A stretch of 64,000 bases of DNA from Lolliginicoccus suaedae (GTDB lineage Bacteria; Actinomycetota; Actinomycetes; Mycobacteriales; Mycobacteriaceae), in contig NZ_VSSO01000002.1 in NCBI RefSeq assembly GCF_008312885.1, positions 421,846-485,845 of the forward strand. Reading direction: 5' to 3'. Below are positions 31,464 to 58,065 of the stretch, one piece after another (positions within the stretch are counted from its first letter, which is position 1; each line of letters begins with the position of its first letter). A model generated the notes under the pieces. That model ran no database searches, was not told where the DNA came from, and saw only the letters and a list, made by a program, of their open reading frames with translations. The position numbers and the translations under genes were made by a program.

Positions 31464-31847
31464 ATGGCGAAGCTCACCACTGACGAGTTGATCGAATCGT
31501 TCAAGGAGATGACCCTTCTCGAGCTCTCCGAGTTCGTCAAGGTCTTCGAGGAGACCTTCGAGGTCACCGCTGCCGCTCCCGTGGCTGTCGCTGCGGGCGG
31601 CGCTGCACCCGCCGCTGAGGTTGTCGAGGAGAAGGACGAGTTCGACGTCGTCCTCGAGGCTGCTGGCGACAAGAAGATCGGCGTCATCAAGGTCGTTCGC
31701 GAGATCATCCCGAGCCTGGGCCTGAAGGAGGCCAAGGAGCTCGTCGAGGCTGCTCCCAAGGCCATCCTCGAGGCTGTCGCCAAGGACCAGGCGGATGCCG
31801 CCAAGGAGAAGCTGGAAGCAGCAGGCGCCAAGGTCTCGCTCAAGTGA
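31464..31847 (+). CDS. rplL: 50S ribosomal protein L7/L12
   Basis: The 127-residue protein has the N-terminal dimerisation domain ([28 protein letters not shown]), the Ala/Pro/Val-rich hinge (residues ~35-50), and the globular C-terminal domain ([40 protein letters not shown]). It recruits translation GTPases. GGAAGGAACG precedes ATG 31464. Confidence 0.98.
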
Positions 31848-31926: not shown

Positions 31927-32249
31927 ACGCGTTTTGTGACGCGTCCGGCTCATCGCTGCCGGCCGCTCCCGTTTCGTGGGAGTCCGCGTACGCAACGGTG
32001 TCCGGTTTGGGGTAATCCGCAGGGGTGGAGGCTGCTGGGGAGGGTCGTCCGATAGGGGCCTCGATCAAGCGCAATCCAGGATGGATGGCTTTGGAACCTG
32101 CTGTCCCGCAACACTATTCGATTCCCCAAGGTTGCCCTCCTGGATATGCCCGCATGGTGCTGGAATAGCATGCCGTGCCCACAATTTGGAGGGCGCCCGC
32201 ATCGTCGCATCTGCGGCAGTTTATTGTTCATTGGGTGCGTGCCACCGGG
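31927..32249. other. Gap of about 320 bp upstream of the first mce operon
   Basis: No coding sequence is supported. The stretch is moderately AT-enriched with scattered short ORFs and presumably contains upstream regulatory sequence for the operon. Confidence 0.4.
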
Positions 32250-32306
32250 GTGCGTTAAAGTGACGCGACCCACACTGATGGTGGTGTGGCAAAGCTGGGA
32301 GGTTCC
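32250..32306 (+). promoter_or_regulatory. mce operon 1 promoter/leader with hairpin
   Basis: The segment GTGCGTTAAAGTGACGC contains a -10-like TAAAGT (32256-32261). CCACAC (32270-32275) pairs with GTGTGG (32284-32289) just before the GGGAGG ribosome site. The same elements occur at 42650-42707 with a changed loop. Confidence 0.45.
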
Positions 32307-33320
32307 GTGGGAGTCGAGGTCGCGGTCGAGGGTCTGACTAAGTCATTCGGTTCGACGAATATCTGGTCCGATGTATCGTTCACCATTCCGAACGGGGAGG
32401 TGTCGGCGCTGCTCGGCCCGTCGGGCACGGGCAAGTCGGTGTTCCTGAAGTCGCTGATCGGCCTGCTCCGCCCGGAGCGGGGGACGATCGTGATCGATGG
32501 CACCGACATCCTGCAGTGCACGCAGCGGGAGCTCTACGAGATCCGCAAGCTGTTCGGGGTGCTGTTCCAGGATGGCGCGCTGTTCGGGTCGATGGACCTG
32601 TATGACAACGTGGCGTTCCCGCTGCGCGAGCACACGAAGAAGTCCGAGTCCGAGATCCGCAAGATCGTCATGGACAACATGGAGCTCGTGGGCCTGATGG
32701 GCGCGGAGAACAAGCTGCCGGGCGAGATCTCGGGCGGGATGCGCAAGCGCGCGGGCCTGGCCCGGGCGCTGGTGCTCAACCCCGAGGTGCTGCTGTGCGA
32801 TGAGCCGGACTCGGGCCTCGACCCGGTGCGCACGGCGTACTTGAGCCAGCTGATCCTCGATATCAACGCGCAGATCGACTGCACGGTGCTGATCGTGACG
32901 CACAACATCAACATGGCGCGCACGGTGCCCGACAACCTGGGGATGCTGTTCCGCAAGCACCTGGTGATGTTCGGCCCGCGCGAGGTGCTGCTGACCTCGG
33001 ACGAGCCGGTGGTGGGGCAGTTCCTCAATGGCCGCAAGCTCGGCCCGATCGGCATGTCGGAGGAGAAGGACGAGGCGCAGCGGGCGGCGGAGGAGGCCAT
33101 GGCCGCGGCCGGGCACGCCGATGGGTCGCCGGACGAGGATGTGCGGGGCATCGTGCCGCAGATCCGGCCGACGCCGGGGATGCCGGTGCGGCAGGGCGAG
33201 ATCCGTCGCCGCGAGCGGGTGCGGGCGATCGTGGATGATCTGCCCGAGCCGGCGCGGCGGGCGATCTACAAGGAGCTCGAGGAGCATGAGGCCGCGGAGC
33301 GGGCTGGGAGCAACCAATGA
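32307..33320 (+). CDS. mceG: Mce transporter ATPase MceG, copy 1
   Basis: MceG (Mkl) is the cytoplasmic ATPase that powers Mce lipid importers through YrbE permeases. The 337-residue product has Walker A GPSGTGKS, the modified signature ISGGMRKRAGLARAL, Walker B VLLCDEPDSGLDP and the H-loop VTHNIN. A long hydrophilic C-terminal extension (about residues 245-337) is typical of Mkl. GTG 32307 is chosen because it follows GGGAGG and gives the same start as copy 2; a GTG at 32286 is possible. DNA identical to copy 2 from 32319 to 33327. Mycobacterium usually has one mceG for all its mce operons. Confidence 0.93.
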   Translation: MGVEVAVEGLTKSFGSTNIWSDVSFTIPNGEVSALLGPSGTGKSVFLKSLIGLLRPERGTIVIDGTDILQCTQRELYEIRKLFGVLFQDGALFGSMDLYDNVAFPLREHTKKSESEIRKIVMDNMELVGLMGAENKLPGEISGGMRKRAGLARALVLNPEVLLCDEPDSGLDPVRTAYLSQLILDINAQIDCTVLIVTHNINMARTVPDNLGMLFRKHLVMFGPREVLLTSDEPVVGQFLNGRKLGPIGMSEEKDEAQRAAEEAMAAAGHADGSPDEDVRGIVPQIRPTPGMPVRQGEIRRRERVRAIVDDLPEPARRAIYKELEEHEAAERAGSNQ

Positions 33321-33367
33321 CCAGCGCCACCAGCGCCCAGGAAAGTCGAAATGAGGATCAGCCTTGA
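33317..33367 (+). other. 16-codon remnant ORF between mceG copy 1 and yrbEA
   Basis: ATG 33317 overlaps the mceG stop exactly as in operon 2, and the first bases ATGACCAGCGC are the start of the operon-2 permease gene. The frame then ends at TGA 33365-33367. It looks like the right edge of a conversion tract. Confidence 0.6.
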
Positions 33368-34179
33368 CTGTTCAAGTCGAATCTAACAAGAAGGGACTGA
33401 TCGCGGACGCGGTCAATGAGATCGGTGGCCTCGTGACGTTTGCCGCGCAAACGTTCCTCACCGGTCTGGCCGCGATCCTGCGCGGCAGGTTCCCGCTCGC
33501 GGAGTTCGTCGGCCAGACAGTGTTTCTCGTGCGCGTCTGCTTCTGGCCGTCGCTGCTGCTGATGCTGCCGATCGGTGTGGTCATCGCCGTGATGATGGGT
33601 GGTCTCGCCGGCCGTATCGGTGCCGCCCAGTACTCGGGAGCGGTGGTGTCCTTCGTCATCATCGGCCAGGCCGCCGCGCTGGTGACCGCGCTCATCGTGG
33701 CTGGCGTCGGCGGTGCTGCCATCGTGTCGGACCTCGGTGCTCGCACCATCCGCGAGGAGATCGACGCGATGCAGGTCATGAGCATGGACGTCGTGGAGCG
33801 CGTCGTCGTGCCCCGCGTGTTCGCGCTGGTGTTCGTCGCCCTGTCGATGTGCGCGATCGTCTCGTTCTCCGGGATCTTGTTCACCTATGCGTACCAAGTG
33901 GTCGGCGTTGGTGAATCCCAGGGCGGATTCCTGCTCACGCTGCAGGCATACGGACGCACCACGGACTTCGTCATGGCGCTGTTCAAGTCGTTCTGCTTCG
34001 GCGTGGCCTGCTCGATCATCGCCGCGTACAAGGGCACCCAGACCCGGGGCGGCTCCTCGGGCGTGGCCAACTCGGTGAACGAGTCCGTGGTGATGATGTT
34101 CATCGCGGTGTTCGTCATCAACGTGGTCCTCACCCAGATGTACATCGTGGTCGTCCCAGCGGTTGGAGAGTACATATGA
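33364..34179 (+). CDS. yrbEA: YrbE (MlaE-type) permease A of mce operon 1
   Basis: The 271-residue permease has five to six membrane helices and the MlaE-family cytoplasmic coupling segment TIREEIDAMQVMSMDVVERVVVPRVFA, which contacts the ATPase. It forms the inner-membrane channel with YrbEB. It starts with TTG 33364, preceded by GAGG, and overlaps (TTGA) the stop of a 16-codon ORF that opens at the ATG of the mceG overlap (33317). This odd start arrangement differs from operon 2, where the permease begins directly at the corresponding ATG. Confidence 0.9.
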   Translation: MTVQVESNKKGLIADAVNEIGGLVTFAAQTFLTGLAAILRGRFPLAEFVGQTVFLVRVCFWPSLLLMLPIGVVIAVMMGGLAGRIGAAQYSGAVVSFVIIGQAAALVTALIVAGVGGAAIVSDLGARTIREEIDAMQVMSMDVVERVVVPRVFALVFVALSMCAIVSFSGILFTYAYQVVGVGESQGGFLLTLQAYGRTTDFVMALFKSFCFGVACSIIAAYKGTQTRGGSSGVANSVNESVVMMFIAVFVINVVLTQMYIVVVPAVGEYI

Positions 34180-35039
34180 CGACGACAGACGCAGGAGTAC
34201 GGCTCAAGAAGCTGTCCAAGGGGACCGTCGGCAGGGTCAAGAGCAACCTCGAGGCGCTCGATGGCCACGTCATGTTCGGCGTGAAGATGTTCGCCGGCAT
34301 TCCCCTCGTGCTCACCAAGTACCGCAAGCACGTCATCACCGAGATCGGCAACATCAGCTTCGGCAAGGCCTCGCTGCTCTCGGGCGGTGGCACCATCGGC
34401 GTGGTTGCGGGAATGGCCATCGTCGCGGCGGTGATGGTCTCCATCGAGATCCACCGCGCGCTCGGCCTGCTCGGCTTCACTGCTCTCTCTGGCCTCGCCG
34501 GATCGATCGCGAACACCCAGGCGCTCGCCCCGCTGATCGCCTCCCTCGCGATCGCCGCCAAGGTGGGCACGGGCTTCACCGCCCAGCTCGGCTCGATGCG
34601 CGTCTCCGAGGAGATCGACGCCCTCGACGTGCTCGGCGTGCCCTCCATCCCGTTCCTCGCCTCGGTCCGCATGGTGGCGATGCTCGTCATCATCGCGCCC
34701 GTGTACATGGTTGGCCTGCTCGGCGCCTATCTCGCGTCGCGCCTGGTCATCGTGAACATGCTGGGGGAGTCATCGGGAACGTATGACTATTACTTCCGGC
34801 AATCGATCACCCCGGAGTTCTTCGCGTACTCGGTGCTGATGACAGTGATCTTCTCGATCATCATCGCCGTGATCTGCTGCTCCTACGGCTACAACGCCGG
34901 TGGCGGACCGGAAGGCGTGGGGCGCGCGGCCGGAACAGCGGTCCGCACCACGATCCTGACGATCGCGCTCGCCGCGATGGTGCTGATCTTCGGCCTCTAC
35001 GGCCTGACACCAACGATTCCGGGAATGGGGCTTGAATAG
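34176..35039 (+). CDS. yrbEB: YrbE (MlaE-type) permease B of mce operon 1
   Basis: The 287-residue permease has a ~45-residue cytoplasmic N-terminus, about five membrane helices and the coupling segment RVSEEIDALDVLGVPSIPFLASVRMVA, with GFTAQLGSMR before it, as expected for the B-type permease. ATG 34176 overlaps the previous stop (ATGA), so the pair is translationally coupled. It ends directly before mceA (the TAG is followed by ATG 35040). Confidence 0.92.
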   Translation: MTTTDAGVRLKKLSKGTVGRVKSNLEALDGHVMFGVKMFAGIPLVLTKYRKHVITEIGNISFGKASLLSGGGTIGVVAGMAIVAAVMVSIEIHRALGLLGFTALSGLAGSIANTQALAPLIASLAIAAKVGTGFTAQLGSMRVSEEIDALDVLGVPSIPFLASVRMVAMLVIIAPVYMVGLLGAYLASRLVIVNMLGESSGTYDYYFRQSITPEFFAYSVLMTVIFSIIIAVICCSYGYNAGGGPEGVGRAAGTAVRTTILTIALAAMVLIFGLYGLTPTIPGMGLE

Positions 35040-36335
35040 ATGAAGTCGATTCGTGGATTGATCATTGGCGTCCTCATCCTTGCTGTCTCGGCACTGCTGA
35101 TCGCTCGCGGTGCCGGTGCGCTTGATCGATCGCCCAAGATCTACGTCGAGGTCCCCGCAGTGGTGGCCTCGGCCGACGGGACCAACAACGAGCCGGGCCT
35201 GCTGCTCGGCTCCAACAACGCGGTGCGCTTCGAGGGCGTCATCGTGGGTCGCATGTCCAATCTCGAGACTGGGCTGACCAACGATCAGGGCGAGGACTAC
35301 TCCCTCGTGGAGATGCAGATCGACGGGGACGTCCTGCGCAACATGCCTGATGACACCCTTGTCCGCGTCGTCCCGCGCACCATCTTCGGTGACAACGAGC
35401 TGCACCTCGTGGCGCCGTACCAGCAAGCCGCGGATGGACGCTCGGCATCGACCGTCGAGCCTGGCGAGACCATCGCGCTCGACACCGGCGAGGAAGCGCA
35501 GCAGCTCTACAACGTCTACGAGAAGGTCATGCGGGCGGTGTACGAGCTCAATATCGACAAGTCCATCCAGGGCTTGCGCGAGCTGCGCCAGGGCGTCGAA
35601 GGCCGTGGCGAGGACATCGGCAACCTCATCGTCCAGGGCGGCGACCTGCTTGAGTCGCTCCAGCCGATGATCGATGGAAACGTCATCCCGGACCTGCGCC
35701 GGGTCGCGGAGAACGTCGATGGGGCGCTGCCCGATGTCATCGACACCCTTGACCAGTCGGCCGTGCTCGCCGATATCCTCACCAGCCGCGAAGATGGCCT
35801 GCGCGACGTGTTCGTCTCCGGTGCCGCGTTCTCCGGCGACGTCGGATCCCTGTTCGCCCTGATCAAGGACGACACGATCGTCGTCATCGACGGGCTCGTC
35901 AAGACTGGCAACGCCGTCAACCAGGGCGAGGGCCTCGACGGAGTGCTCAACAGCCTCGGTGAGCTCGGCACAGGCCTTGCCCCCGCGATCCAGGCGGGCA
36001 AGCTCAAGATCACCCTTGTGGCAACATTCGAGGAACCCATGCCCTACACCCCAGCGGATTGTCCCCAGTACCCGGGGCTGTCATCGCCCACCTGCGGGCC
36101 GGCGACGCCGAGGACCACGAACCGGTCCGCGCTCTCGGACCTCGTTCCGTTCTTCCCCGCCTCGGGCAATGTCCAGCAGCTGCCCTCGCTCGATCCGCTA
36201 GCGGCCATCGAGCAGGAGCTGGCCCGCGCGATCCCGGGATTCACCCCGGCTTCCGCGGCGACCGGTACGCCTAGCGCCCCGACCGCGCTCATGCTCGGCC
36301 CCCTCGTCCGCGGAGCGGTGGTGGAGGTCCAGTGA
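35040..36335 (+). CDS. mceA: Mce protein A of mce operon 1
   Basis: The 431-residue protein has an N-terminal membrane anchor (residues ~5-25), an MlaD domain (about 35-140) and a helical region that would build the hydrophobic tunnel across the periplasm. The MlaD part is unusual, with an insertion around LLLGSNNAVRFEG. Two cysteines in DCPQYPGLSSPTCG near residue 350 could form a disulfide. No RGD motif is seen. It is the first of six mce genes in the canonical order. Confidence 0.9.
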   Translation: MKSIRGLIIGVLILAVSALLIARGAGALDRSPKIYVEVPAVVASADGTNNEPGLLLGSNNAVRFEGVIVGRMSNLETGLTNDQGEDYSLVEMQIDGDVLRNMPDDTLVRVVPRTIFGDNELHLVAPYQQAADGRSASTVEPGETIALDTGEEAQQLYNVYEKVMRAVYELNIDKSIQGLRELRQGVEGRGEDIGNLIVQGGDLLESLQPMIDGNVIPDLRRVAENVDGALPDVIDTLDQSAVLADILTSREDGLRDVFVSGAAFSGDVGSLFALIKDDTIVVIDGLVKTGNAVNQGEGLDGVLNSLGELGTGLAPAIQAGKLKITLVATFEEPMPYTPADCPQYPGLSSPTCGPATPRTTNRSALSDLVPFFPASGNVQQLPSLDPLAAIEQELARAIPGFTPASAATGTPSAPTALMLGPLVRGAVVEVQ

Positions 36336-37354
36336 AGCTCAGCAGAGGTGCCCTGATCGGGCTTGTCGTCTTCCTGGTACTCGTGCTGTTCACGTCGTTC
36401 AGCGTGTGGCAGACGCTCAGCCCGCCCGTTGACGGCAGCGAGGACCGCTACGAGGCAGAGTTCACCGACATCACCAGCCTCAAGCCCGGCGATGATGTCA
36501 CCCTCGCCGGCGTGCGCGTCGGCAAGGTCCGTGGCGTCAGCTGGGAACGACAGGACGATGGTGCTGTCAATGCAGTCGTCGAGTTCGGCATCGAGGATCA
36601 CATCGAGCTCACCGAGGCCGCGACCGCGCAGGTGAAGTTCGCCGACATGCTTGGCGTTCGCTACATGGGCATCGTTGATCCCGGTGGCGCGCCGGTGCTC
36701 GAGCCAGGCGGACGGTTCCTCACGGAGGGCAAGCCGCCCACGGATGTGACGGAGCTGTTCAATGGCTTCCGGCCGGTCTTCCGGATCATCGATCCGCCAC
36801 GGCTCAACGAGCTCGCCGCATCGATCATCGAGGCCCTCGACGGCAACACCGATGTGTTCGAGGCAATGCTGCTCGGCATGCTCGACGTCGCCAACGTGAC
36901 CCTCGCCCGGCAGACCGAGATCGAGGTGCTCGCCGAGACGCTGCCGGACGCCCTCAAGATGATCAACGACCGCAATGACGACGTCGCGGCAGCGATCGAG
37001 GGTGTCGCCAGCCTCACCGAGAAGATGGCGAGCCGCAACCAGGACGTCATCGCGGTCCTCGACCAGGGCGGATCCACCATGGACAAGCTCGCCACCTTCC
37101 TGGACACCACGATGCCGGACCTGCAGCGCAGCATCTCGGCAGGCACCGCGGTCAGCCAGGAGTGGAGCGCGAACAACGCCGAGTACGTCCAGCTGCTCGC
37201 CAGCCTGGAACGCGCGGCGAAGGCTGTGAACCACTACGGCGAGTACGGGTCCTGGATCAACATCTACATGTGTAACCTCACAGTCCGCGCTGGCAGCGCC
37301 GCCGTCGATCCGTTCTCGTTGGTCGGCGGAACCCAATCGGAGGTGTGCCGATGA
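36332..37354 (+). CDS. mceB: Mce protein B of mce operon 1
   Basis: The 340-residue protein has an N-terminal membrane segment (~6-26), the MlaD domain with FTDITSLKPGDDVTLAGVRVGKV, and a helical region with repeated heptad-like segments. The C-terminus YGSWINIYMCNL is characteristic of MceB. The GTG start overlaps the mceA stop (GTGA). Confidence 0.92.
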   Translation: MKLSRGALIGLVVFLVLVLFTSFSVWQTLSPPVDGSEDRYEAEFTDITSLKPGDDVTLAGVRVGKVRGVSWERQDDGAVNAVVEFGIEDHIELTEAATAQVKFADMLGVRYMGIVDPGGAPVLEPGGRFLTEGKPPTDVTELFNGFRPVFRIIDPPRLNELAASIIEALDGNTDVFEAMLLGMLDVANVTLARQTEIEVLAETLPDALKMINDRNDDVAAAIEGVASLTEKMASRNQDVIAVLDQGGSTMDKLATFLDTTMPDLQRSISAGTAVSQEWSANNAEYVQLLASLERAAKAVNHYGEYGSWINIYMCNLTVRAGSAAVDPFSLVGGTQSEVCR

Positions 37355-38406
37355 TCCGGTGGATCAAGAACCTCAACCAGCAACTCGTCGGCTCGGGCAT
37401 CTCGAAGATCTACGTCACCCGCCCTGGCCTCATTGGCGCGGTCGCGCTGGCGATCCTCATCACGGTGCTGCTGATCGCCGCCTTCTTCCCGACGGCGGTA
37501 TACAACCTGCGCACCAAGGGCTACTCCATCGCGCTCGAGAGCTCGGGCGGGGTCTCGGCCGGAGACCCGGTCTACGTGGCCGGCTATCCGGCGGGCCGCG
37601 TGGAATCCGTGGAGATCGAGGGCGACGAGGTGGTCGCTGAGTTCCGGGTCGATCGATCGATCGACCTCGGAGCGGACACCGAGGGCGAGATCAAGCTGCG
37701 CACCATCCTCGGTGCGTACTACCTCGATGTGCGGCCGCGCGGCGACGGTGAGCTCGCCGATGGCCGGATCCCGCTCGAGCGCTCCGGTGTGCCGTTCAGC
37801 TTCGACGAGATCGCGCGAAGCGCCTACAACGCGACCCGGACCGATGACCCCGACCGGGAAACCATCGACTACCAGCAGCTGTCCGACCTCGCCGATCTTG
37901 CCTACGAGTCCATTCCGGACCGGCAGCTCGCCGAGGAAGCGCTCAATGCGCTCGCCGACGCGGCAGCTGTCATCAACAACAATGGCGACCAGATCGAGGA
38001 GATCCTCGAGCAGGGCCGTGACCTCGCGGTCCTCGTCGATGGGCAGCAGGATTCCATCGAGGTCCTCTTCGACCAGGGCGCGGTCATCTTCGGCACCCTG
38101 GGCGCCCGGGCACAGCTGCTCAGTGGCCTGATCACCGACCTCGAGACTGTCGCGGACCGGGTCACCGAGCTGCTGACCGATGAGCCGGGGGAGATCGACA
38201 ACCTCCTGATCAGCGTCCAGCAGGTCACCACCATGCTCGCTTCCGAGGCAGATGCCCTCGACCGCAGCATGGAGGAGCTCGCCCCGGCATTCCGGACACT
38301 CACCGATGCCACCGGCAACGGCCCCTGGCTGGACGTCACGTTCCCGGCCGGCCCGCTCCCCGACAACTTGCTCTGCCTGATTGGCGCGATGGAAGGATGC
38401 CGATAA
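37351..38406 (+). CDS. mceC: Mce protein C of mce operon 1
   Basis: The 351-residue protein has a 30-residue cytoplasmic N-terminus, one helix (~28-50), the MlaD domain (SSGGVSAGDPVYVAGYPAGRVESVEI ... ILGAYYLDVRPRG), and a coiled helical part. The C-terminus ends CLIGAMEGCR, with two cysteines. ATG 37351 overlaps the mceB stop (ATGA); a GTG at 37345 is less likely. Confidence 0.9.
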   Translation: MIRWIKNLNQQLVGSGISKIYVTRPGLIGAVALAILITVLLIAAFFPTAVYNLRTKGYSIALESSGGVSAGDPVYVAGYPAGRVESVEIEGDEVVAEFRVDRSIDLGADTEGEIKLRTILGAYYLDVRPRGDGELADGRIPLERSGVPFSFDEIARSAYNATRTDDPDRETIDYQQLSDLADLAYESIPDRQLAEEALNALADAAAVINNNGDQIEEILEQGRDLAVLVDGQQDSIEVLFDQGAVIFGTLGARAQLLSGLITDLETVADRVTELLTDEPGEIDNLLISVQQVTTMLASEADALDRSMEELAPAFRTLTDATGNGPWLDVTFPAGPLPDNLLCLIGAMEGCR

Positions 38407-39537
38407 ATGAGCGCAGATCCAAGCGTGCAGACCAAAGGCGGGAAAGCTGGCAAGCTGCTGGCGCTCCTGCTGGTCGCGGTCCTCGTCATCGCGCTGGTGT
38501 GGTTCATGTTCATTCGTGACAACCGCAAGACGATCTTCGGGGAGTTCGAGGTCGCCACGGGCCTCTATATCGACAACGAGGTGCGCCTCCTCGGCGTGGA
38601 GATCGGCAAGGTCACCGAGATCACTCCATCGGCGCAGGGCGTGCTCGTCGAGATGAAGGTCGAGGACGATGTCGCCATCCCGGCGAACGTCAGTGCCCTC
38701 ATCACCAACCGCACATTGGTCGCGGACCGCTACGTCGAGCTAGTCCTCCCGCCCCGGGAGGAGCGCTACGGGGATCTCTCGGACGGATCAACGATCCCGC
38801 TGGAGAACACCGACGTCCCCATCGACTACGACATGCTGCTGACCTCGGCCAAGGATCTCGCGGACTCGCTGGGCGGCGAGGAAGAGCTCGGCAACATCCG
38901 CGAGACCGTCGAGAAGATGGGCGAGGCCTTCGATGGCCTCGGGCCGGACGCGAACCGCGCCATCGAGGAGTTCGCTGGCGCGACCCGCACCCTCGCGGGA
39001 AGCTCCGAGGAGATCGATGAGCTCCTCGAGGTGTTCGGGCGCATCGCACGGATGCTCTCCGACCGGGAGGCCGAGATCCGCCAGTTCACCACCTCGCTCA
39101 CCATCCTCGCTGACGAGGCTGGCCGCCAGGACGTCGATCTCGGCAACATGATCACGCAGATCAGGACCATGTTCGACGAGGCCGATCGACTCGTCACCGA
39201 GCGCGGTGGCGACTTCACCCAGATGGTGCAGTCGACCGACGTGCTCGCCAACGTGCTCGCGAGCCGACAGGTCGAGCTGGCCGAGCTCATCGATATCGCA
39301 CCGACCCTGGGCCAGAACGCGGCGAACGTCATCACGCCGGACCGGCGGGCACGCATTCGCCTGAACATCTCGTCGGACCTGCGGCAGCTTCCGGGGCTCG
39401 CCAGGCTCTGTGGCCAGTCGCCCGCATCGTTCTGCACCGGTGCTGGGTTCACCAACCCGATCTCCTACCCGGTCAGCTTCTCCGATCCACTGAACATCGG
39501 ACAGATCTTGAACAACGCGGGAGGGGGAGGACGATGA
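38407..39537 (+). CDS. mceD: Mce protein D of mce operon 1
   Basis: The 376-residue protein has one membrane helix (~17-36), the MlaD domain (FEVATGLYIDNEVRLLGVEIGKVTEI, LVADRYVELVLPP), and a long helical stretch (residues ~135-300). The C-terminal LCGQSPASFC carries two cysteines. The ATG follows the mceC stop by one base (TAAATG). Confidence 0.9.
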   Translation: MSADPSVQTKGGKAGKLLALLLVAVLVIALVWFMFIRDNRKTIFGEFEVATGLYIDNEVRLLGVEIGKVTEITPSAQGVLVEMKVEDDVAIPANVSALITNRTLVADRYVELVLPPREERYGDLSDGSTIPLENTDVPIDYDMLLTSAKDLADSLGGEEELGNIRETVEKMGEAFDGLGPDANRAIEEFAGATRTLAGSSEEIDELLEVFGRIARMLSDREAEIRQFTTSLTILADEAGRQDVDLGNMITQIRTMFDEADRLVTERGGDFTQMVQSTDVLANVLASRQVELAELIDIAPTLGQNAANVITPDRRARIRLNISSDLRQLPGLARLCGQSPASFCTGAGFTNPISYPVSFSDPLNIGQILNNAGGGGR

Positions 39538-40565
39538 ACAAACCAGCCCGAAAGCTCGCGATAGCAGGATTGCTCATCATGCCAACCACGGTGGCAGTGT
39601 CAGGCTGCTCGGTCGGCATGCAGAACATCGACTTCGACGCCGTGCAGGGCAGGGACGTCTACCCGTTGCAGGTCGAGCTCGAGACCGCTGACCTATTGAT
39701 GGTCGGCAGCGAGGTCCGGCTCGGGCAGCAGATGCTCGGCCGGGTAACGGACCTGAGCACTGACGTGGCCGCCGATGGACGCCGCATCGCGGTGGCGGAC
39801 ATCAGCCTCCCCGCCGATGTCGAGCTTCCCCGCAACGCCACCATCACGGTGGAGCTTCCCAACACGCTCGGCAACCCGTACCTGCGGGTCCGGATGCCCG
39901 AGGACGAAGCACCCATGGCGCCCTACCAGCCGGACGAGCGCATCCCGGAGAGCCAGACGTTCCGTGGCCCCGACCTCGAGAACGCACTCGCCAGCCTCGC
40001 GCTCGTGCTGAGCGAGGGGGGAGTGGGCAGCCTCGAGGTCATCGCGAACGAGATGGAGCTCGCCATCGGAGGACGCGGCGACGATATCCGCCGCACCGTG
40101 GCGGCGCTTCGCGATACCGCGCAGATCCTCGAGTCCCGGTCAGCGGACATCGATCGGATCCTCGTGGCCGCGTCGAATGCCTCCGCGCGCATCGCGGACG
40201 AGCAGGACACCTTCGACAACAGCCTCGATGCCGCATTGCCGGTGTTCGACCAGCTGATCGACCAGTGGGACGAGATCGCTGATCTCCTCGCGAGCCTCGC
40301 CTCGATGTCGGGGGAGATCGATCAGGTCATGACAGCATCCGAGGATGATCTCCTCGCGCTGCCCGCGGAGCTCGCGGAGTTGCTCGAGGCGCTCGAGCGA
40401 ACGGATATCCGCTCGGTGATCGTGCCGCTCGCCGATCTGCTCGGCAGGCTCGATGATGCGCGCTCCGGGGACTACCTCCGCATCGATGCGGACGCGGATG
40501 TCCCGGAACTGCTCAACAATCTCGTGGTCGGTGGACAGCCGATCCAGACTGGAGGCGGACGATGA
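39534..40565 (+). CDS. mceE: Mce lipoprotein E of mce operon 1
   Basis: The 343-residue lipoprotein has a signal peptide with the lipobox VSGC (Cys near residue 24), after which the mature protein would be lipid-anchored. The MlaD domain follows (LLMVGSEVRLGQQMLGRVTDL ... LGNPYLRVRMP), then helices. Position five with a lipobox is the hallmark of MceE (LprK type). ATG 39534 overlaps the mceD stop (ATGA). Confidence 0.93.
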   Translation: MNKPARKLAIAGLLIMPTTVAVSGCSVGMQNIDFDAVQGRDVYPLQVELETADLLMVGSEVRLGQQMLGRVTDLSTDVAADGRRIAVADISLPADVELPRNATITVELPNTLGNPYLRVRMPEDEAPMAPYQPDERIPESQTFRGPDLENALASLALVLSEGGVGSLEVIANEMELAIGGRGDDIRRTVAALRDTAQILESRSADIDRILVAASNASARIADEQDTFDNSLDAALPVFDQLIDQWDEIADLLASLASMSGEIDQVMTASEDDLLALPAELAELLEALERTDIRSVIVPLADLLGRLDDARSGDYLRIDADADVPELLNNLVVGGQPIQTGGGR

Positions 40566-41842
40566 GACGCAGCACGAAGGTTCAGCTCGCGCTGTTCATC
40601 GCGATGGCGCTGTTCATCATCCCGTTCGGCACCCGCTACGCGCTTGGCTCGCAGTTCCTGAGCCTGGGCACGATCGGGCTCGGCGATCGCCCGACCAAGG
40701 CGACGGCCTACTTCGACGATGGTCGTGGCCTCGGCCCCGGCACCGTGGTCACCTATCAGGGCGTCGTGATCGGCAAGATCCAGGAGATCAAGCCGGTCGC
40801 TCCCGATGAGGTTCGGCGGATCCAGACCGATGACGGCGAGGTCGTCCTGCCCGTTCGCGTTGAGTTCCAGCTCGACCCGGGCGTCGAGGTCCCCAACAAC
40901 GTGACACCGGTCTCGACGATCCTCAACGTTGCCGGACTGGTCAACCTCGAGCTGCGGCCGCAGGAGGACAGCGTGGCCGCGGAGAGCCTCGTCGACGGCG
41001 ATGAGCTGCTCGTTGATCCGAGCCTGCAGCGCGTCAGCTTCCGCGAGGTCCTCGTATCGGTCAACGAGGTCGTTGACACCCTCGATGTGGAATCGCTCGA
41101 TGCGCTGCTCAGCATGCTCGGCGATACCTTTGCCGGGCGCGGCGACGACATCGGCGACATCATCGACAATATCGGCGAGCTCGCGGATGTGTTCGACAAG
41201 CATGGCGAGACCGTGGACTGGCTGGGCACCGAGGGCCCCGCGACGATGGCGCTGATCGCTGATGCGTCGGACTCGATGCCCTCGTCGTTCGCCACGTTCA
41301 ATACCTGGACCCGCCAGCTCATCGAGGCCCGTCCGGACCTCGAGGGCCTCATCGATACCGGGCCGGGCTCGATGCGTCGGGTCGCTGACCTCATCGCGAG
41401 CAACGAGGCAGGCCTGGACAGCATGATGGATGGCTGGGGAGACGTGGTTCCCGTTCTCGGCGACCGCGAGTCCGCCCTGCAGGCATTCGTCACTGACTTC
41501 CCGGCCGGGATCCGCGAGGTCGCGGGCATCGCTCCCGGCGGCGTGGCCCGGTTCGACGTGGTCGTGACCCAGGGACCTGTGTGCTACTACGAGACGACTC
41601 GGCGTACCGTGGGCGACAATGGCGATCGCGAGTCGAACAAGTCCGTGTTCTGCCCGCCTGGCCCTGATCGTGGGCAGCGTGGCGCAGCCACCGCTCCCCG
41701 CCCCAATGGTCTCGGTCTCGTGGGCTACACCTCGCCCGGGCTCGAGGCAGGCCCGGCGATGGTGTCGGATCCGATCATCCTTGGCCCGGCGAGCCGGGCC
41801 GCGCTCGACGGATTGCGCGACGCTGGCGTGCTGCCCCGCTAG
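40562..41842 (+). CDS. mceF: Mce protein F of mce operon 1
   Basis: The 426-residue protein has an N-terminal helix (~8-26), the MlaD domain (FDDGRGLGPGTVVTYQGVVIGKIQEI, VAGLVNLELRPQ), a helical region, and a C-terminal domain with cysteines (CYYETTRR, FCPPGP). It is the last mce gene of the operon, starting with ATGA overlap at 40562. A Mce-associated membrane gene follows after 50-130 bp, depending on its start. Confidence 0.92.
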   Translation: MRRSTKVQLALFIAMALFIIPFGTRYALGSQFLSLGTIGLGDRPTKATAYFDDGRGLGPGTVVTYQGVVIGKIQEIKPVAPDEVRRIQTDDGEVVLPVRVEFQLDPGVEVPNNVTPVSTILNVAGLVNLELRPQEDSVAAESLVDGDELLVDPSLQRVSFREVLVSVNEVVDTLDVESLDALLSMLGDTFAGRGDDIGDIIDNIGELADVFDKHGETVDWLGTEGPATMALIADASDSMPSSFATFNTWTRQLIEARPDLEGLIDTGPGSMRRVADLIASNEAGLDSMMDGWGDVVPVLGDRESALQAFVTDFPAGIREVAGIAPGGVARFDVVVTQGPVCYYETTRRTVGDNGDRESNKSVFCPPGPDRGQRGAATAPRPNGLGLVGYTSPGLEAGPAMVSDPIILGPASRAALDGLRDAGVLPR

Positions 41843-41894
41843 GCAGCTGGCATGGAGGCCGTAGTCACGCCTCCCCGATGAAGGAGCTCCAGAA

Positions 41895-42422
41895 ATTAAT
41901 CAGTTCGACCACGACGCTCGGTCAACGACCAAGGACGGCAACGGCCAGCGGCGAGGAGGTGCAGCGGGCTACGTGCTCGCTGCGCTCTTCGCTGTGATCG
42001 CTGCGGTGCTCGGCTTTCTCTACTGGAACGAGGCCAGCAACGGCGAGGCGGCCCTGCGCGAGGAAGCGGTGGCCGCGGCCACGGAGTACGGGGCGCTGAT
42101 CGGTACCTACGATCACACCGACCTCGATGCCAATGTGGAATCGGTGCGGGCGATCTCGACCGAGAGCTACGCCACGGAGTACGAGACGATCTCGACCGAG
42201 CTCGAGGCCGCGGTCGCGGCATTCGAGGCTGTGTCGGTCGGCACCGTCACTCATGCCGCGGCCGAGACCATCAGCGAGGACTCGGCGACGGTACTGGTAT
42301 TCCTCGATCAGGATGTCAACACCAACCAGCTCGAGGAGCAGGGGATCACGGTGAGCCGACTCGTGATGACTCTGGTCCGGGAGGGCGATCGCTGGCTCCT
42401 CGATGGCGCTGAGCCCGCGTAG
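41895..42422 (+). CDS. Mce-associated membrane protein after operon 1
   Basis: One membrane helix is followed by a ~125-residue extracytoplasmic NTF2-like domain (TEYGALIGTYDHTDLDANVESVRAIS, WLLDGAEPA), as in the Mam proteins encoded behind mce operons, which stabilise or assist the complexes. The start is uncertain. The frame opens at a TAG at 41862, with no ATG, GTG or TTG before GTG 41973 (149 residues, GAGGAGG 13 nt upstream). An ATT at 41895 lies 8 nt after AAGGAG and would restore a 26-residue hydrophilic cytoplasmic N-terminus, giving 175 residues. I annotate the longer version tentatively. Confidence 0.65.
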   Translation: MNQFDHDARSTTKDGNGQRRGGAAGYVLAALFAVIAAVLGFLYWNEASNGEAALREEAVAAATEYGALIGTYDHTDLDANVESVRAISTESYATEYETISTELEAAVAAFEAVSVGTVTHAAAETISEDSATVLVFLDQDVNTNQLEEQGITVSRLVMTLVREGDRWLLDGAEPA

Positions 42423-42443
42423 CGGGGGTTCCTGAATACTGGT

Positions 42444-42478
42444 GAATGCCTGGCTGCTGATGATGTAGCCAGGCATTC
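42444..42478 (+). terminator. Terminator of mce operon 1
   Basis: GAATGCCTGGCT (42444-42455) pairs perfectly with AGCCAGGCATTC (42467-42478). Confidence 0.75.
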
Positions 42479-42649
42479 GTCGTGCTGCCAGTGCTGAGCG
42501 GCGGCAAGCGGCCTAGAGCGCACGCGTACACATTCGTTTGCCTGGTGTTTGTCAACGCCTCCGACGAAGAACTTTGTCCCCAGTTTGGGGGTTGTTGCAA
42601 TGTGCTTCATCACTATCAAGTAACGTGCGGAGTCACGTGCATCGCATGT

Positions 42650-42707
42650 GTGCGTTAGAGTGACGCCACCCACACTGCTCGGTGGTGTGGCCTAGCTGGG
42701 AGGTTCC
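42650..42707 (+). promoter_or_regulatory. mce operon 2 promoter/leader with hairpin
   Basis: GTGCGTTAGAGTGACGC parallels the operon-1 leader, with -10-like TAGAGT (42656-42661). CCACAC (42670-42675) pairs with GTGTGG (42685-42690) before GGGAGG. The loop differs by sequence and by one base from the operon-1 version. Confidence 0.45.
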
Positions 42708-43721
42708 GTGGGAGTCGAAGTCGCGGTCGAGGGTCTGACTAAGTCATTCGGTTCGACGAATATCTGGTCCGATGTATCGTTCACCATTCCGAACGGGGAG
42801 GTGTCGGCGCTGCTCGGCCCGTCGGGCACGGGCAAGTCGGTGTTCCTGAAGTCGCTGATCGGCCTGCTCCGCCCGGAGCGGGGGACGATCGTGATCGATG
42901 GCACCGACATCCTGCAGTGCACGCAGCGGGAGCTCTACGAGATCCGCAAGCTGTTCGGGGTGCTGTTCCAGGATGGCGCGCTGTTCGGGTCGATGGACCT
43001 GTATGACAACGTGGCGTTCCCGCTGCGCGAGCACACGAAGAAGTCCGAGTCCGAGATCCGCAAGATCGTCATGGACAACATGGAGCTCGTGGGCCTGATG
43101 GGCGCGGAGAACAAGCTGCCGGGCGAGATCTCGGGCGGGATGCGCAAGCGCGCGGGCCTGGCCCGGGCGCTGGTGCTCAACCCCGAGGTGCTGCTGTGCG
43201 ATGAGCCGGACTCGGGCCTCGACCCGGTGCGCACGGCGTACTTGAGCCAGCTGATCCTCGATATCAACGCGCAGATCGACTGCACGGTGCTGATCGTGAC
43301 GCACAACATCAACATGGCGCGCACGGTGCCCGACAACCTGGGGATGCTGTTCCGCAAGCACCTGGTGATGTTCGGCCCGCGCGAGGTGCTGCTGACCTCG
43401 GACGAGCCGGTGGTGGGGCAGTTCCTCAATGGCCGCAAGCTCGGCCCGATCGGCATGTCGGAGGAGAAGGACGAGGCGCAGCGGGCGGCGGAGGAGGCCA
43501 TGGCCGCGGCCGGGCACGCCGATGGGTCGCCGGACGAGGATGTGCGGGGCATCGTGCCGCAGATCCGGCCGACGCCGGGGATGCCGGTGCGGCAGGGCGA
43601 GATCCGTCGCCGCGAGCGGGTGCGGGCGATCGTGGATGATCTGCCCGAGCCGGCGCGGCGGGCGATCTACAAGGAGCTCGAGGAGCATGAGGCCGCGGAG
43701 CGGGCTGGGAGCAACCAATGA
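42708..43721 (+). CDS. mceG: Mce transporter ATPase MceG, copy 2
   Basis: The product is the same 337 residues as copy 1, with Walker A, ISGGMRKRAG signature, Walker B and H-loop intact. Within the gene I find one DNA difference from copy 1, a synonymous GAA for GAG at codon 4. The identity stretches 7 bases past the stop codon into the next gene and ends abruptly. GTG 42708 follows GGGAGG. The stop overlaps the permease ATG (ATGA), the natural arrangement that copy 1 lacks. Confidence 0.94.
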   Translation: MGVEVAVEGLTKSFGSTNIWSDVSFTIPNGEVSALLGPSGTGKSVFLKSLIGLLRPERGTIVIDGTDILQCTQRELYEIRKLFGVLFQDGALFGSMDLYDNVAFPLREHTKKSESEIRKIVMDNMELVGLMGAENKLPGEISGGMRKRAGLARALVLNPEVLLCDEPDSGLDPVRTAYLSQLILDINAQIDCTVLIVTHNINMARTVPDNLGMLFRKHLVMFGPREVLLTSDEPVVGQFLNGRKLGPIGMSEEKDEAQRAAEEAMAAAGHADGSPDEDVRGIVPQIRPTPGMPVRQGEIRRRERVRAIVDDLPEPARRAIYKELEEHEAAERAGSNQ

Positions 43722-44518
43722 CCAGCGCAGTGCGCGATAACAAGGTGACCAAGGCTGCCGGGAGCATGCTCCGCCAGGCCGGCCTGATCTTCCAGCTGTT
43801 CGTCGACGTCATCCGCAACACCTTCCGCCGACCGTTCCAGACGCGCGAGTTCATCGAGCAGTCCTGGTTCATCGCGAACGTGACGATCCTCCCGACCGCG
43901 CTGGTCGCGATCCCGTTCGGCGCGATCGTCTCGCTGCAGACCGGCTCGCTGATCCGTCAGCTCGGCGCCGAGGGTTTCGTCGGATCGGCCAGCTCGCTCG
44001 CGGTCATCCAGCAGGGCAGCCCCCTGGTGACCGCCCTGCTCGTCGCTGGTGCTGCTGGCTCGGCCGTGACGGCTGACCTGGGATCCCGCACCATTCGCGA
44101 GGAGATCGACGCGATGAAGGTGCTGGGCATCGACCCGATCCAGCGCCTCGTGGTGCCGCGCGTGCTGGCGATGATCATGATCGCCGCGCTGCTCAATGGT
44201 CTTGTCGCCGTGGTCGGCGTCGGCGGTGGCTACATCTTCAACGTGATGCTGCAGGACGGTACTCCTGGAACCTACGTGGCCTCGTTCTCGGCACTGGCCC
44301 AGTTGCCCGACCTCTGGATCGGTGAGCTCAAGGGCATGGTGTTCGGCGTGATCGCAGGCGTGATCGCCGCATATAAGGGACTCAACCCCAAGGGCGGGCC
44401 CAAGGGCGTCGGCGATGCAGTGAACGAGGGCGTCGTCGTCACGTTCCTCTTGCTGTTCTTCGCCAACTTCATCCTTACCGCTGTGTACATCCAGATCATC
44501 CCGCCGAAGGGGGCGTAA
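43718..44518 (+). CDS. yrbEA: YrbE (MlaE-type) permease A of mce operon 2
   Basis: The 266-residue permease has five to six helices and the coupling segment RTIREEIDAMKVLGIDPIQRLVVPRVLA. It is clearly diverged from the operon-1 permease despite the identical ATPase. The start ATG 43718 overlaps the mceG stop. Confidence 0.93.
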   Translation: MTSAVRDNKVTKAAGSMLRQAGLIFQLFVDVIRNTFRRPFQTREFIEQSWFIANVTILPTALVAIPFGAIVSLQTGSLIRQLGAEGFVGSASSLAVIQQGSPLVTALLVAGAAGSAVTADLGSRTIREEIDAMKVLGIDPIQRLVVPRVLAMIMIAALLNGLVAVVGVGGGYIFNVMLQDGTPGTYVASFSALAQLPDLWIGELKGMVFGVIAGVIAAYKGLNPKGGPKGVGDAVNEGVVVTFLLLFFANFILTAVYIQIIPPKGA

Positions 44519-44521
44519 GGC

Positions 44522-45382
44522 ATGACGGCAACCAAGGGCCGCCTCGATGTGATGGGGCGGCGCGCGAAGAAAGCCGCCAAGGCACCCCTCAATACGCTGG
44601 AGGACCTGGGCGGGCAGCTGTCGTTCTACGGCCGCGCTATCGCCTGGATCCCCGCTGCCATCAAGAAGTACCCGAAGGAGATCACCCGCCTGCTCGCCGA
44701 GGTGACCTTCGGCACCGGTGGCCTCGCGGTCATCCTGGGTACCTTCGGCGTCATCATCGCGATGTCCGCCTTCACCGGCGTCGTCGTGGGCATGCAGGGC
44801 TATGCGTCGCTCGATCAGATCGGCGCCTCGGTGCTGACTGGCTTCATCGCCGCGTACATCAACACCCGTGAGGTCGCGCCGATCATTGCGGCGCTAGCAC
44901 TGTCCTCCACCGTCGGATGCGGCTTCACCGCCCAGCTCGGCGCGATGCGCATCTCCGAGGAGATCGACGCGGTCGAGGTCATGGCCGTTCCCAGCCTGCC
45001 CTTCCTCGTCACCACCCGGATCGTGGCAGGATTCATCGCCGTCATCCCGCTCTACATCGTGGGACTGCTCTCCTCGTACTTCGCCTCGCGAGCCATCAAC
45101 GTCTATCTCAATGGCCAATCGACTGGTTCGTACGACCACTACTTCAACCTCTTCCTGCCACCAGAGGATGTGTTGTGGTCGTTCGGCAAGGTCCTGGTGT
45201 TCGCGTTCGTGCTCATCATGGTGCACTGCTACTACGGCTACAACGCTAGTGGTGGCCCCGCCGGCGTGGGCGTTGCCGTCGGTACGTCTGTGCGGACGGT
45301 CATCGTTACCGTCGCCATCCTTGACTTCTTCCTGAGCCTCGCCATCTGGGGCACGACTACCACAGTGAGGGTTGCCGGATGA
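44522..45382 (+). CDS. yrbEB: YrbE (MlaE-type) permease B of mce operon 2
   Basis: The 286-residue permease has about five helices and the segments GFTAQLGAMRISEEIDAVEVM and YGYNASGGPAGVG, typical of the B permease. It starts 3 bp after the A gene and overlaps mceA by ATGA. Confidence 0.93.
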   Translation: MTATKGRLDVMGRRAKKAAKAPLNTLEDLGGQLSFYGRAIAWIPAAIKKYPKEITRLLAEVTFGTGGLAVILGTFGVIIAMSAFTGVVVGMQGYASLDQIGASVLTGFIAAYINTREVAPIIAALALSSTVGCGFTAQLGAMRISEEIDAVEVMAVPSLPFLVTTRIVAGFIAVIPLYIVGLLSSYFASRAINVYLNGQSTGSYDHYFNLFLPPEDVLWSFGKVLVFAFVLIMVHCYYGYNASGGPAGVGVAVGTSVRTVIVTVAILDFFLSLAIWGTTTTVRVAG

Positions 45383-46722
45383 GTGCTGTACCCAGCAAGA
45401 ACAGGCTGCGCTTCATCGGAATCATCTTCCTAGTCCTGATCCTTGCCTTCGTGCTTTTCACGACGCTGACATTCATGAAGGTCTTCAAGCCGGTGACGAA
45501 GGCGACCGTTGTCGTCGACACCCTCGGAAACGCGCTGAGCAACCAGGCTGACGTCAAGATCAATGGCGTCGACGTGGGCGAGGTCCGCAGCACCAGCCTC
45601 GCGCCCGGCGGCCGCCAGGCGCAGATCGAGATCGCGATCGACGCCGACAGGGTGTCCTACGTCCCGGAGAACGTGACCGCGCGCATCGCTCCGAAGACCC
45701 TCTTCGGCGAGCGGTACGTCGCGCTGATCCTGCCGGAGAACCCTGTCGGGGAGATCCAGGCGGGCGCGATGATCCCCGAGGCCACCCAGGGCAGCGTCAT
45801 CGATGCCTCCCGCATGTATGACGTGTTCCACGACCTGCTCACCGCTGTGCCTCCTTCGGATCTCGCCATCACTCTCGGTGCCCTCAACCAGGCATTCAGC
45901 GGGCGCGGCGACAAGCTTGGAGCCATGATCGACCGGTTCCAGGAGATGGCGACCAGCATCAACACCGAGCAGCCGAACCTGGAAGCAACGGTCAGGGATT
46001 TCGCGACCTTCGCGGACACTTACTCCGATGCGCTCCCGGACCTGATCAACGCGCTCGATACGTTCCGCACCACCAACCAGACGATCATTGATGAGCGCTC
46101 CAACGTCGACGCGATGCTCGTCTCCCTCACTCGCTCGTCGAACCAGTTGGCGGACTTCCTCAACACCAACGGCGATAACATCATCTCCATCGCGGCGGAC
46201 TCGAGGGAGACCCTGGAGCTGCTGGCTCGCTACTCACCGGCCTACGGCTGCGCGATCGGCTACTTCGCGGACGTCGAGCCGCGGGTCGACCGCGCGTTCG
46301 GAGTCGGCGTCGAGGAGCGCGGTCGTGGCCTCAACGTGACGGTGGAGCTCGCCAACCCGCGCGGCCGGTACCTGCCCAACCAGGATGAGCCACGCTTGTT
46401 CGATACGCGCGGCCCCATCTGCTACCAGCCGGTGCCAGAAGGACAGGGCAACTTTGGCCAGTACCCGGGTGGCGCGATCAATGATGGAACCTACCCCGTG
46501 CCGTCGCGCAACCCTGGCCCGCAGAACCTGCAGGAACTGCCAGACCCGCTGGCCAGCGTGGTGAGCACGAGCGGACCCGACCTCGCCGGTTCCACGGCGG
46601 AGCGTGACGCGCTGAGCGTCATCTACAGCCAGGGAACCGGAATCGCGCCCGACGACATTCCAGGATGGACCACCATGATCGGAGCACCAATACTTCGCGG
46701 GGCGGAGGTGAGCATCCGATGA
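45379..46722 (+). CDS. mceA: Mce protein A of mce operon 2
   Basis: The 447-residue protein has a membrane helix (~11-30), the MlaD domain (TLGNALSNQADVKINGVDVGEVRS, TLFGERYVALILP), a helical region and a C-terminal part with cysteines in YGCAIGYF and ICYQPVP. It is closer to the canonical actinobacterial MceA than the operon-1 copy. Confidence 0.92.
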   Translation: MSAVPSKNRLRFIGIIFLVLILAFVLFTTLTFMKVFKPVTKATVVVDTLGNALSNQADVKINGVDVGEVRSTSLAPGGRQAQIEIAIDADRVSYVPENVTARIAPKTLFGERYVALILPENPVGEIQAGAMIPEATQGSVIDASRMYDVFHDLLTAVPPSDLAITLGALNQAFSGRGDKLGAMIDRFQEMATSINTEQPNLEATVRDFATFADTYSDALPDLINALDTFRTTNQTIIDERSNVDAMLVSLTRSSNQLADFLNTNGDNIISIAADSRETLELLARYSPAYGCAIGYFADVEPRVDRAFGVGVEERGRGLNVTVELANPRGRYLPNQDEPRLFDTRGPICYQPVPEGQGNFGQYPGGAINDGTYPVPSRNPGPQNLQELPDPLASVVSTSGPDLAGSTAERDALSVIYSQGTGIAPDDIPGWTTMIGAPILRGAEVSIR

Positions 46723-47798
46723 AGAGCCTCGCTGCACCCCTGATCAAGCTGCTTGTCTTCGCTGTCATCACCATCGCGTCAGTCTCGGTGCTCGCCGTGG
46801 CTGTGGCGAACTACCTGCCAACCTCGGGAGCGAAGTACACGGCTCACTTCACCGATGTCACATCGCTGAGCGTCGGCGACGAGGTCCGGATCGCCGGTGT
46901 TCGCGTTGGCAAGGTGACGGCCATCAACCTCCTGCCCCAGGGCGCCGACCGCGATATCGCTGAGGTCGAGTTCCAGCTCCAGGAGGGCATGGAGGTTCCC
47001 GCCAACGTCGACGCTGCCATTCGGTACCGGCACCTCGCTGGCCAGCGGTACATGCTGCTGACCCGGGGGACGACTGGCAACGAGAGCGAGGTCCTCGAAT
47101 CGGGCGATGTGATCCCGCTCGAGCGCACGACGCCAGCGGTCAACCTGACCGTCTTGTTCAACGGCTTCCGGCCCCTGTTCGAGACCCTCGACCCCAACGA
47201 CGTCAACCGGCTCGCGGACCAGATCATCCAGATCTTCCAGGGCGAGCGGACTACCGTCACCCAGCTGGTCGCCAACGTCGGCACCCTGACCAACGCGATC
47301 GCCGACAAGGACCAGGTCATCGGTGCGGTCATCACGAACCTCAACTCCGTGCTCGAGAGGGTCAATGAGCATGACGAGGACATCAAGGACATGGTGACCT
47401 CCCTCGACATCCTGGTCTCTGGCCTCGCTGAGGATCGCGGCACAATCGGGAGCGCGGTCGACTCGCTGTCCGTGCTCACCACGGAGCTGTCGGGCCTCCT
47501 CGAATCCTCCCGCCCCTCCATCCAAGGCACCATTGGCGGCGTCGAGCAGCTCGCGGGCAACCTCAATGCCAACAGTGGCGAGGTGGAATCCGCGCTGCAG
47601 AACCTTCCGGTGAAGCTCGAGCGCGTGGGCAAGACCGCGTCGCTCGGCTCCTGGTTCTCCATCTACCTGTGCGGGCTCGACATCATGCTCGGACCGGGAG
47701 CGCCTTCCACGGTTAGTGTTCCAGGCGGCATCCCGCGCCTGAACCAGCCGATCTATACCAACGCTTCGCCACGCTGCCAACCTGGGGGTATCCAGTGA
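46719..47798 (+). CDS. mceB: Mce protein B of mce operon 2
   Basis: The 359-residue protein has an N-terminal helix (~7-30), the MlaD domain (FTDVTSLSVGDEVRIAGVRVGKVTAI, LAGQRYMLLTRG), helices, and the MceB C-terminal signature LGSWFSIYLCGL. ATG 46719 overlaps the mceA stop; the frame open from 46665 is not needed. Confidence 0.93.
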   Translation: MKSLAAPLIKLLVFAVITIASVSVLAVAVANYLPTSGAKYTAHFTDVTSLSVGDEVRIAGVRVGKVTAINLLPQGADRDIAEVEFQLQEGMEVPANVDAAIRYRHLAGQRYMLLTRGTTGNESEVLESGDVIPLERTTPAVNLTVLFNGFRPLFETLDPNDVNRLADQIIQIFQGERTTVTQLVANVGTLTNAIADKDQVIGAVITNLNSVLERVNEHDEDIKDMVTSLDILVSGLAEDRGTIGSAVDSLSVLTTELSGLLESSRPSIQGTIGGVEQLAGNLNANSGEVESALQNLPVKLERVGKTASLGSWFSIYLCGLDIMLGPGAPSTVSVPGGIPRLNQPIYTNASPRCQPGGIQ

Positions 47799-48790
47799 CA
47801 AAGCACCGCAATCCCGCTGTCACCGGCTTCATCGGTGTCATCGTGATCCTGGCAGCCACGGCATCCGCCTTCTTCCTGACCGATGTCCCGCTATATGGCC
47901 AGGCCCAGCGCTACACCGCTGAGTTCAGCGAGACCGCCGGCATGGACGTTGGTGCCGAGGTCCGCGTCGCGGGCGTCAAGGTCGGGGAGGTCACCGACAT
48001 GACTCTCGAGGGCGACCGTGTCGCTGTCGGGCTCCGCGTCGAGGACACCTGGATCGGCGACCGCTCCGAGGCCTCCATCCAGATCAAGACCGTCCTGGGC
48101 CAGAAGTATGTCGCGCTCGATCCTCGTGGTACCGAGGCACTCGATCCCCGCGACCGAATCCCGCTGGAGCGCACGACCGCGCCCTACGACGTCATCCCGG
48201 CGTTCTCCGACGCGGCAGAGACGCTCGGCGAGATCGACATGGAGCAGGCGGCCGACGCTTTCCGCACCCTCTCCGACACCTTCGCCGACACTCCTGAGCA
48301 CATGCGCAACGCGATCGATGGGGTCACCAGGCTTTCGCAGACCATCTCCCAGCGCGACGAGGAATTGGTACGGCTTCTCGCGGAGACCCGCGAGACCACC
48401 CAGATCTTCGCTGATCGCAATGAGGAGTTCAGCCGCCTGATCACCAACGCTGGCCTGCTGCTCCAGGAGCTCAACATCCGGCGCGAGGCGATCTCGATCC
48501 TCCTGCAGTCCACCCAGGATCTCTCCACCGAGCTCACCGGTCTCGTCGAGGACAACGAGGCCCAGATGGGCCCAGCGCTGGCGCAGCTGCAGGGAGTCAC
48601 CGATATCCTCGTGCGCAACCAGGAAGCGTTGCAGCGAGGGGTGAACCTTCTCGCACCGTTCTACCGGGTCTTCGCAGACACCCTCGCCAACGGGCGCTGG
48701 TTCGACATCGCCATCGTCAACCTCACGCCGCCCGGGCTGCCTGAGGTCCCAGGCGTTCGTGCCCCGATCAACACCGAGGGAGTTAACTGA
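47795..48790 (+). CDS. mceC: Mce protein C of mce operon 2
   Basis: The 331-residue protein has a membrane helix (~10-30), the MlaD domain (SETAGMDVGAEVRVAGVKVGEVTDM, VLGQKYVALDPRG), helices, and ends in the NGRWFDIAIVNL segment and a proline-containing tail. No cysteine is present, unlike MceC of operon 1. The GTG start overlaps the mceB stop. Confidence 0.92.
   Translation: MTKHRNPAVTGFIGVIVILAATASAFFLTDVPLYGQAQRYTAEFSETAGMDVGAEVRVAGVKVGEVTDMTLEGDRVAVGLRVEDTWIGDRSEASIQIKTVLGQKYVALDPRGTEALDPRDRIPLERTTAPYDVIPAFSDAAETLGEIDMEQAADAFRTLSDTFADTPEHMRNAIDGVTRLSQTISQRDEELVRLLAETRETTQIFADRNEEFSRLITNAGLLLQELNIRREAISILLQSTQDLSTELTGLVEDNEAQMGPALAQLQGVTDILVRNQEALQRGVNLLAPFYRVFADTLANGRWFDIAIVNLTPPGLPEVPGVRAPINTEGVN

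Positions 48791-54609: not shown

Positions 54610-58065
<3,456 letters not shown>

Follow-up and report, generated by a model that had tools for sequence, protein, structure and literature searches.

Evidence for concerted evolution of two mceG genes heading adjacent mce operons in Lolliginicoccus suaedae

The 64,000-nucleotide stretch of the Lolliginicoccus suaedae genome analysed here (the window) contains two copies of mceG, a gene for an ATP-binding cassette (ABC) transporter ATPase, each of which stands at the head of its own mce operon. The two genes very probably undergo concerted evolution by recurrent homologous recombination, in a manner resembling that of tufA/tufB. Across two genera the flanks of mceG follow the locus, whereas mceG itself follows the species or genus.

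The mceG pair and its flanks in the window

Alignment of the two window copies revealed exact identity over 1009 bp (32319-33327 and 42720-43728; offset 10401). The sole coding difference lies at gene position 12, where 32318 is G and 42719 is A (GAG/GAA, synonymous). Both MceG proteins are 337 amino acids long and identical, with a synonymous divergence (dS) of 0.004 between the genes (one difference over 257 synonymous sites) and a nonsynonymous divergence (dN) of 0. An earlier reading of the letters alone (the sequence-only reading) had claimed identical proteins and this very block, with one synonymous difference just before it; both claims proved exact. The identical block approximates the gene, from the GTG start at 32307 to the stop at 33318-33320, and continues for 7 nt past the stop. 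In ungapped register the identity drops at once to 17-35%, which is background, within a few bases of the block end. The leader of approximately 60 bp upstream of mceG is homologous between the copies but has diverged through substitutions and one indel. Lying 10.4 kb apart in direct orientation with nothing but operon 1 between them, the copies account for all mceG genes of the 3.47-Mb, 9-contig genome; the next DNA matches are generic ABC-ATPase stretches of about 100 bp.

The mceG product contains the ABC ATPase domain PF00005 and shares 73-89% protein identity with genes of named genera that precede mce operons or lie at rplL-rpoB, as expected of the MceG/Mkl group; among named organisms, Hoyosella altamirensis has the closest MceG (89%), which suggests a host belonging to a Hoyosellaceae genus such as Lolliginicoccus. 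The closest NCBIfam model is MlaF, with a score below the cut-off.

The gene order in the window is rplA-rplJ-rplL-mceG-operon 1-mceG-operon 2-rpoB, with the following features:

28631-29341: rplA (Pfam), locus anchor
30847-31383: rplJ (Pfam), locus anchor
31464..31847, + strand: rplL, which we take from its reading frame to encode ribosomal protein L7/L12; anchors the locus with rplJ and rplA
32248..32306, + strand: P1, upstream region of mceG copy 1; in alignments of seven species homologous to P2 but diverged from it, and orthologous across species
32307..33320, + strand: mceG copy 1, ABC-transporter ATPase, GTG start (PF00005; identical block 32319-33327)
33364..35039, + strand: yrbE1A and yrbE1B, MlaE-type permeases of operon 1 (PF02405)
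35040..41842, + strand: six mce genes (A-F) of operon 1 (PF02470/PF11887)
42642..42707, + strand: P2, upstream region of mceG copy 2 (alignments)
42708..43721, + strand: mceG copy 2 (identical block 42720-43728)
43718..45382, + strand: yrbE2A and yrbE2B, permeases of operon 2 (PF02405); the yrbE2A start overlaps the mceG stop
45379..52564, + strand: six mce genes (A-F) of operon 2 (PF02470/PF11887); operon type found after mceG at the same locus in other genera
54592..58065, + strand: rpoB, right anchor (Pfam Rpb2 domains)

Both operons have the composition of an actinobacterial mce operon, two yrbE genes followed by six mce genes in order (PF02405, PF02470/PF11887); a thirteenth Mce domain is encoded elsewhere in the genome, outside both operons. 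Their permeases are only distantly alike (36% protein identity for YrbE1A/YrbE2A, 41% for YrbE1B/YrbE2B), in agreement with the sequence-only reading, which had described the adjoining genes as different throughout. A sigma-70 scan detected no promoter upstream of mceG, and the label 'promoter' for P1 and P2 reflects conservation only.

A reading frame of 16 codons (ATGACCAGCGCC...) at 33318-33368 spans the junction of mceG and yrbE1A in operon 1, overlapping the stop of the former and terminating over the TTG start of the latter; translational coupling through this frame is possible. The opening 11 nt of the frame match the start of yrbE2A exactly, which may hint at copying in the direction from operon 2 to operon 1. 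Separately, the GC content at third codon positions (GC3) is 0.93 for mceG (32307-33317) against 0.85-0.89 in the adjoining yrbE and mce genes, which fits GC-biased conversion or high expression.

Flanks by locus and mceG by species in Lolliginicoccus and Hoyosella

We compared three congeners, of which G002 is the most distant and G003 and G001 are near. Both operons and both leaders are present in all three, so that the survey of relatives proposed in the sequence-only reading found two mceG copies occupying the same two positions. Across seven species of two genera, P1 is orthologous to P1 and P2 to P2, yet the two regions remain distinct from one another; as P1, P2, yrbE1A and yrbE2A are orthologous across the genus and Hoyosella, the two copies predate the species compared. 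In the mceG tree, by contrast with the flanks, the genus of the window forms one clade (99) and Hoyosella another (100), the two being joined (100) and separate from all other genera; the tree was built by a quick method, and the values are support from the Shimodaira-Hasegawa-like approximate likelihood ratio test (SH-aLRT) only.

Synonymous divergence gave a consistent picture. Orthologous flanking genes of the window differ by a dS of 0.22-0.66 from G003, 0.29-0.67 from G001 and 1.27 to saturation from G002, so that the comparison suggested by the sequence-only reading sets at least 0.22 in the flanks against 0.004 between the mceG paralogues. Parts of mceG show a dS of 0.07-0.17 between the window and G003, from which 18-43 synonymous differences over 257 sites would be expected if the last exchange were as old as the split from G003; one was observed. 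Between the genera, mceG has a dS of 0.76-0.78, with 48% of its synonymous sites differing, and sampled flanks have a dS of 1.1-1.8. Within-genome paralogues of mceG are thus closer to each other than between-species orthologues, synonymous sites included.

Each congener assembly is broken at both mceG genes, into a contig ending in mceG, a contig consisting of exactly operon 1 (9453 bases in G001, 9652 in G002, 9566 in G003) and a contig starting at operon 2. The contig ends match each other exactly over 83/83 nt in G002, over 77/77 nt in G003 and, for the 5' side of G001, over 41 nt. Such breaks with common ends are the mark of a collapsed direct repeat, as de Bruijn graphs would yield for two copies without differences on the scale of a k-mer. 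The identity of the mceG copies reaches 0, 1 and 14 nt beyond the start codon on its upstream side in G001, G002 and G003, respectively, while the window has it interrupted within the gene, at position 12; the 3' ends of the identical tracts also vary by species. Because the tract ends differ between species, they point to separate events, and the simplest reading would be that homogenisation took place separately in each lineage.

The same arrangement is found in the sister genus. G076 has a single main contig of 4,738,809 bases, which we take to be the closed chromosome of H. subflava, with the order mceG-operon 1-mceG-operon 2 and linked copies that are 99.1% alike, and H. altamirensis (G092) has the same order as the window. 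Within-species mceG copies are 97.0-99.1% identical in Hoyosella. In a quartet of the operon 1 and operon 2 copies of H. subflava and H. altamirensis, grouping by species is seen at 10 sites, grouping by locus at 2, both of which lie at the ends of the gene, and a crossed pattern at 3. G076 and H. altamirensis each carry a third mceG that is unlinked, far away and beside TetR and DUF3239 genes, and whose homology to the operon copies starts at the ribosome-binding site (CTGGGAGGTTC):

L187 7026-8030, and L185 about 6260-7262 (minus strand): third mceG copies of the two Hoyosella species

The third copy largely retains its own sites; in H. altamirensis it has 3-4 sites in common with the operon 2 copy. 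We dropped the idea that it represents an old second mceG locus common to Rhodococcus and Nocardia, as the other named loci lack TetR and DUF3239 genes next to mceG. A third species of the Hoyosella group (G026) has lost the operon 1 mceG: the leader and first codons are kept and followed by approximately 190 nt of other sequence up to yrbE1A (L188 about 2540-2797; G026:C3). This genome has the operon 2 mceG and a further copy at a non-syntenic neighbourhood, with 63 nt in common at contig ends. Since its operon 1 looks intact without an mceG of its own, operon 1 seems able to live on ATPase supplied in trans.

Mode of homogenisation and competing explanations

Diverged flanks, the same two copies in relatives, and flanks grouping by locus where the gene groups by species or genus together support the gene conversion or ongoing concerted evolution that the sequence-only reading had put forward. 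Several points weigh against this. The middle of mceG is absent from the assemblies of G001 and G002, and about 230 bp are absent in G003, so that identity there is deduced from contig-end overlaps; moreover, a single base close to the 3' end distinguishes the two G003 copies. The Hoyosella copies, at 97-99%, fall short of identity. The third Hoyosella copy bears few signs of having recently exchanged sequence with the operon 1 copy (7 sites group by locus against 1 by species) and may simply be a later duplication.

As to the form of recombination, the number of mceG copies is stable and the ends of the tracts vary from one species to another; the geometry of direct repeats would also suit crossing over between them. 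Non-reciprocal conversion appears the likelier form, given the stable copy number and the sites that H. altamirensis shares with its unlinked copy. Homogenisation by unequal crossing over, in which a unit of mceG and operon 1 is first duplicated and later lost through recombination between the direct repeats and no conversion occurs, is the alternative that fares best, though we consider it unlikely. The spacing of the repeats, with only operon 1 between them, is permissive, but exactly one operon 1 is present at the locus in all four species of the genus and in the Hoyosella genomes examined, and the process cannot yield the 3-4 sites shared by the operon 2 copy and the unlinked third copy in H. 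altamirensis.

It is very improbable that one consensus was pasted at both places during assembly. The window genome is a 9-contig draft; the window, however, contains no N, its copies differ at 32318 and in their leaders, and the breaks in the three congener assemblies are those expected of two identical copies. In addition, the same layout, with copies 99.1% alike, lies on one contig in the closed sister-genus chromosome, which makes misassembly unlikely as the cause. A recent duplication of mceG in this species only would account for 1009 bp of identity with abrupt ends, yet all congeners and two Hoyosella species carry mceG before both operons with locus-specific leaders, leaving this explanation a slimmer chance still. 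Strong purifying selection without recombination, to which the conserved protein and the high GC3 (0.93) might point, has a negligible probability, as synonymous sites are identical too although 48% of them differ between genera.

On the preferred explanation of concerted evolution by recombination, the ancestral locus would have been rplL-mceG-mce operon-rpoB, and operon 1 with a second mceG and leader would have been placed between rplL and mceG before the genus of the window and Hoyosella split. The two direct repeats would afterwards have recombined repeatedly, RecA-type homologous recombination presumably copying one mceG over the other and halting at the limits of homology, the leader and the start of yrbEA. 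The outcome would be two (in Hoyosella usually three) near-identical mceG genes per species, whereas promoters, permeases and mce genes would be free to diverge. Each operon, with mceG at its head, presumably makes its own supply of one common MceG, which would power both Mce lipid importers. Recombination alone would suffice for the uniformity of mceG, and any selective benefit of it is hypothetical. The direct repeats further predict that recombination between the mceG copies would delete operon 1.

Known systems and other Mycobacteriales

Concerted evolution by gene conversion is described for tufA/tufB, encoding elongation factor Tu (PMC5485169, PMC6053082). Similarly to tuf, mceG is present as two protein-gene copies in separate non-homologous contexts that stay near-identical over the long term, with a homogenised stretch of about one gene. 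In contrast, tuf copies are known in many phyla and with measured kinetics, whereas mceG is a transporter ATPase gene of one small family, arranged in direct repeats 10.4 kb apart and known from sequence. Lasting concerted evolution of bacterial protein genes is rare (26 genes in one survey, whose main text names no mce or ABC-transporter gene; PMC6053082). Our literature search, which covered few subscription papers, returned no description of paired mceG or of mceG conversion. Flanks, leaders and gene together provide a clean natural test of concerted evolution, which also bears on how a single ATPase serves several Mce importers.

In M. tuberculosis a single mceG (Rv0655) is common to Mce1 and Mce4 (PMC9947336). 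The window would likewise have one ATPase sequence for two Mce importers with different permeases, but from two identical genes in cis instead of one gene in trans. Non-mycobacterial Actinomycetales carry mceG/mkl next to just one mce operon (Casali and Riley 2007, PMC1810536). The window shares with them an mceG that directly precedes the yrbEA gene of one mce operon, in this case operon 2 at rplL-rpoB, and differs by the inserted second operon, which is headed by a homogenised mceG of its own. In the loci of named Mycobacteriales, located by the markers rplJ and rpoB, an operon-2-type operon usually comes after rplL-mceG; in mycobacteria and some Nocardia, no mce operon accompanies the mceG that lies between the rpl genes and rpoB. 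The contrast that the sequence-only reading drew with Mycobacterium is therefore correct in that mceG is unlinked to mce operons there, but not as to a different arrangement: judged by its position, Mycobacterium mceG is the orthologue at the rplL-rpoB locus, the same in the mycobacterial genomes examined. This places it at the ancestral site, from which the neighbouring mce operon has since gone missing.

Operon-1-type permeases occur in about 10 other genera (47-56% identity), and no mceG was found directly beside them in the fragments fetched around them, which have short flanks. Aldersonia sp. NBC_00410 (L085/L100) and Nocardia higoensis (L113/L124) each have two unlinked mceG genes with unrelated flanks, 98-99% and 95-96% identical, respectively; both pairs could be plain recent duplications. 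Unlinked copies of R. koreensis are 89% (BLASTN) or 94% (codon alignment) identical, against 51-54% translated identity of the aligned yrbE genes. As the unlinked copies of these three are more alike than their surroundings, they offer leads to the broader idea that homogenisation acts on mceG repeatedly throughout Mycobacteriales, also between unlinked copies, with conversion to one sequence favoured by the need for a single ATPase to work with several diverged pairs of Mce permeases; we regard this as conceivable but rather doubtful. Finally, mceG lies upstream of a mce operon in a Rhodococcus aetherivorans record (L057) and downstream of the same operon in N. higoensis (L113), indicating that mceG joined mce operons more than once.
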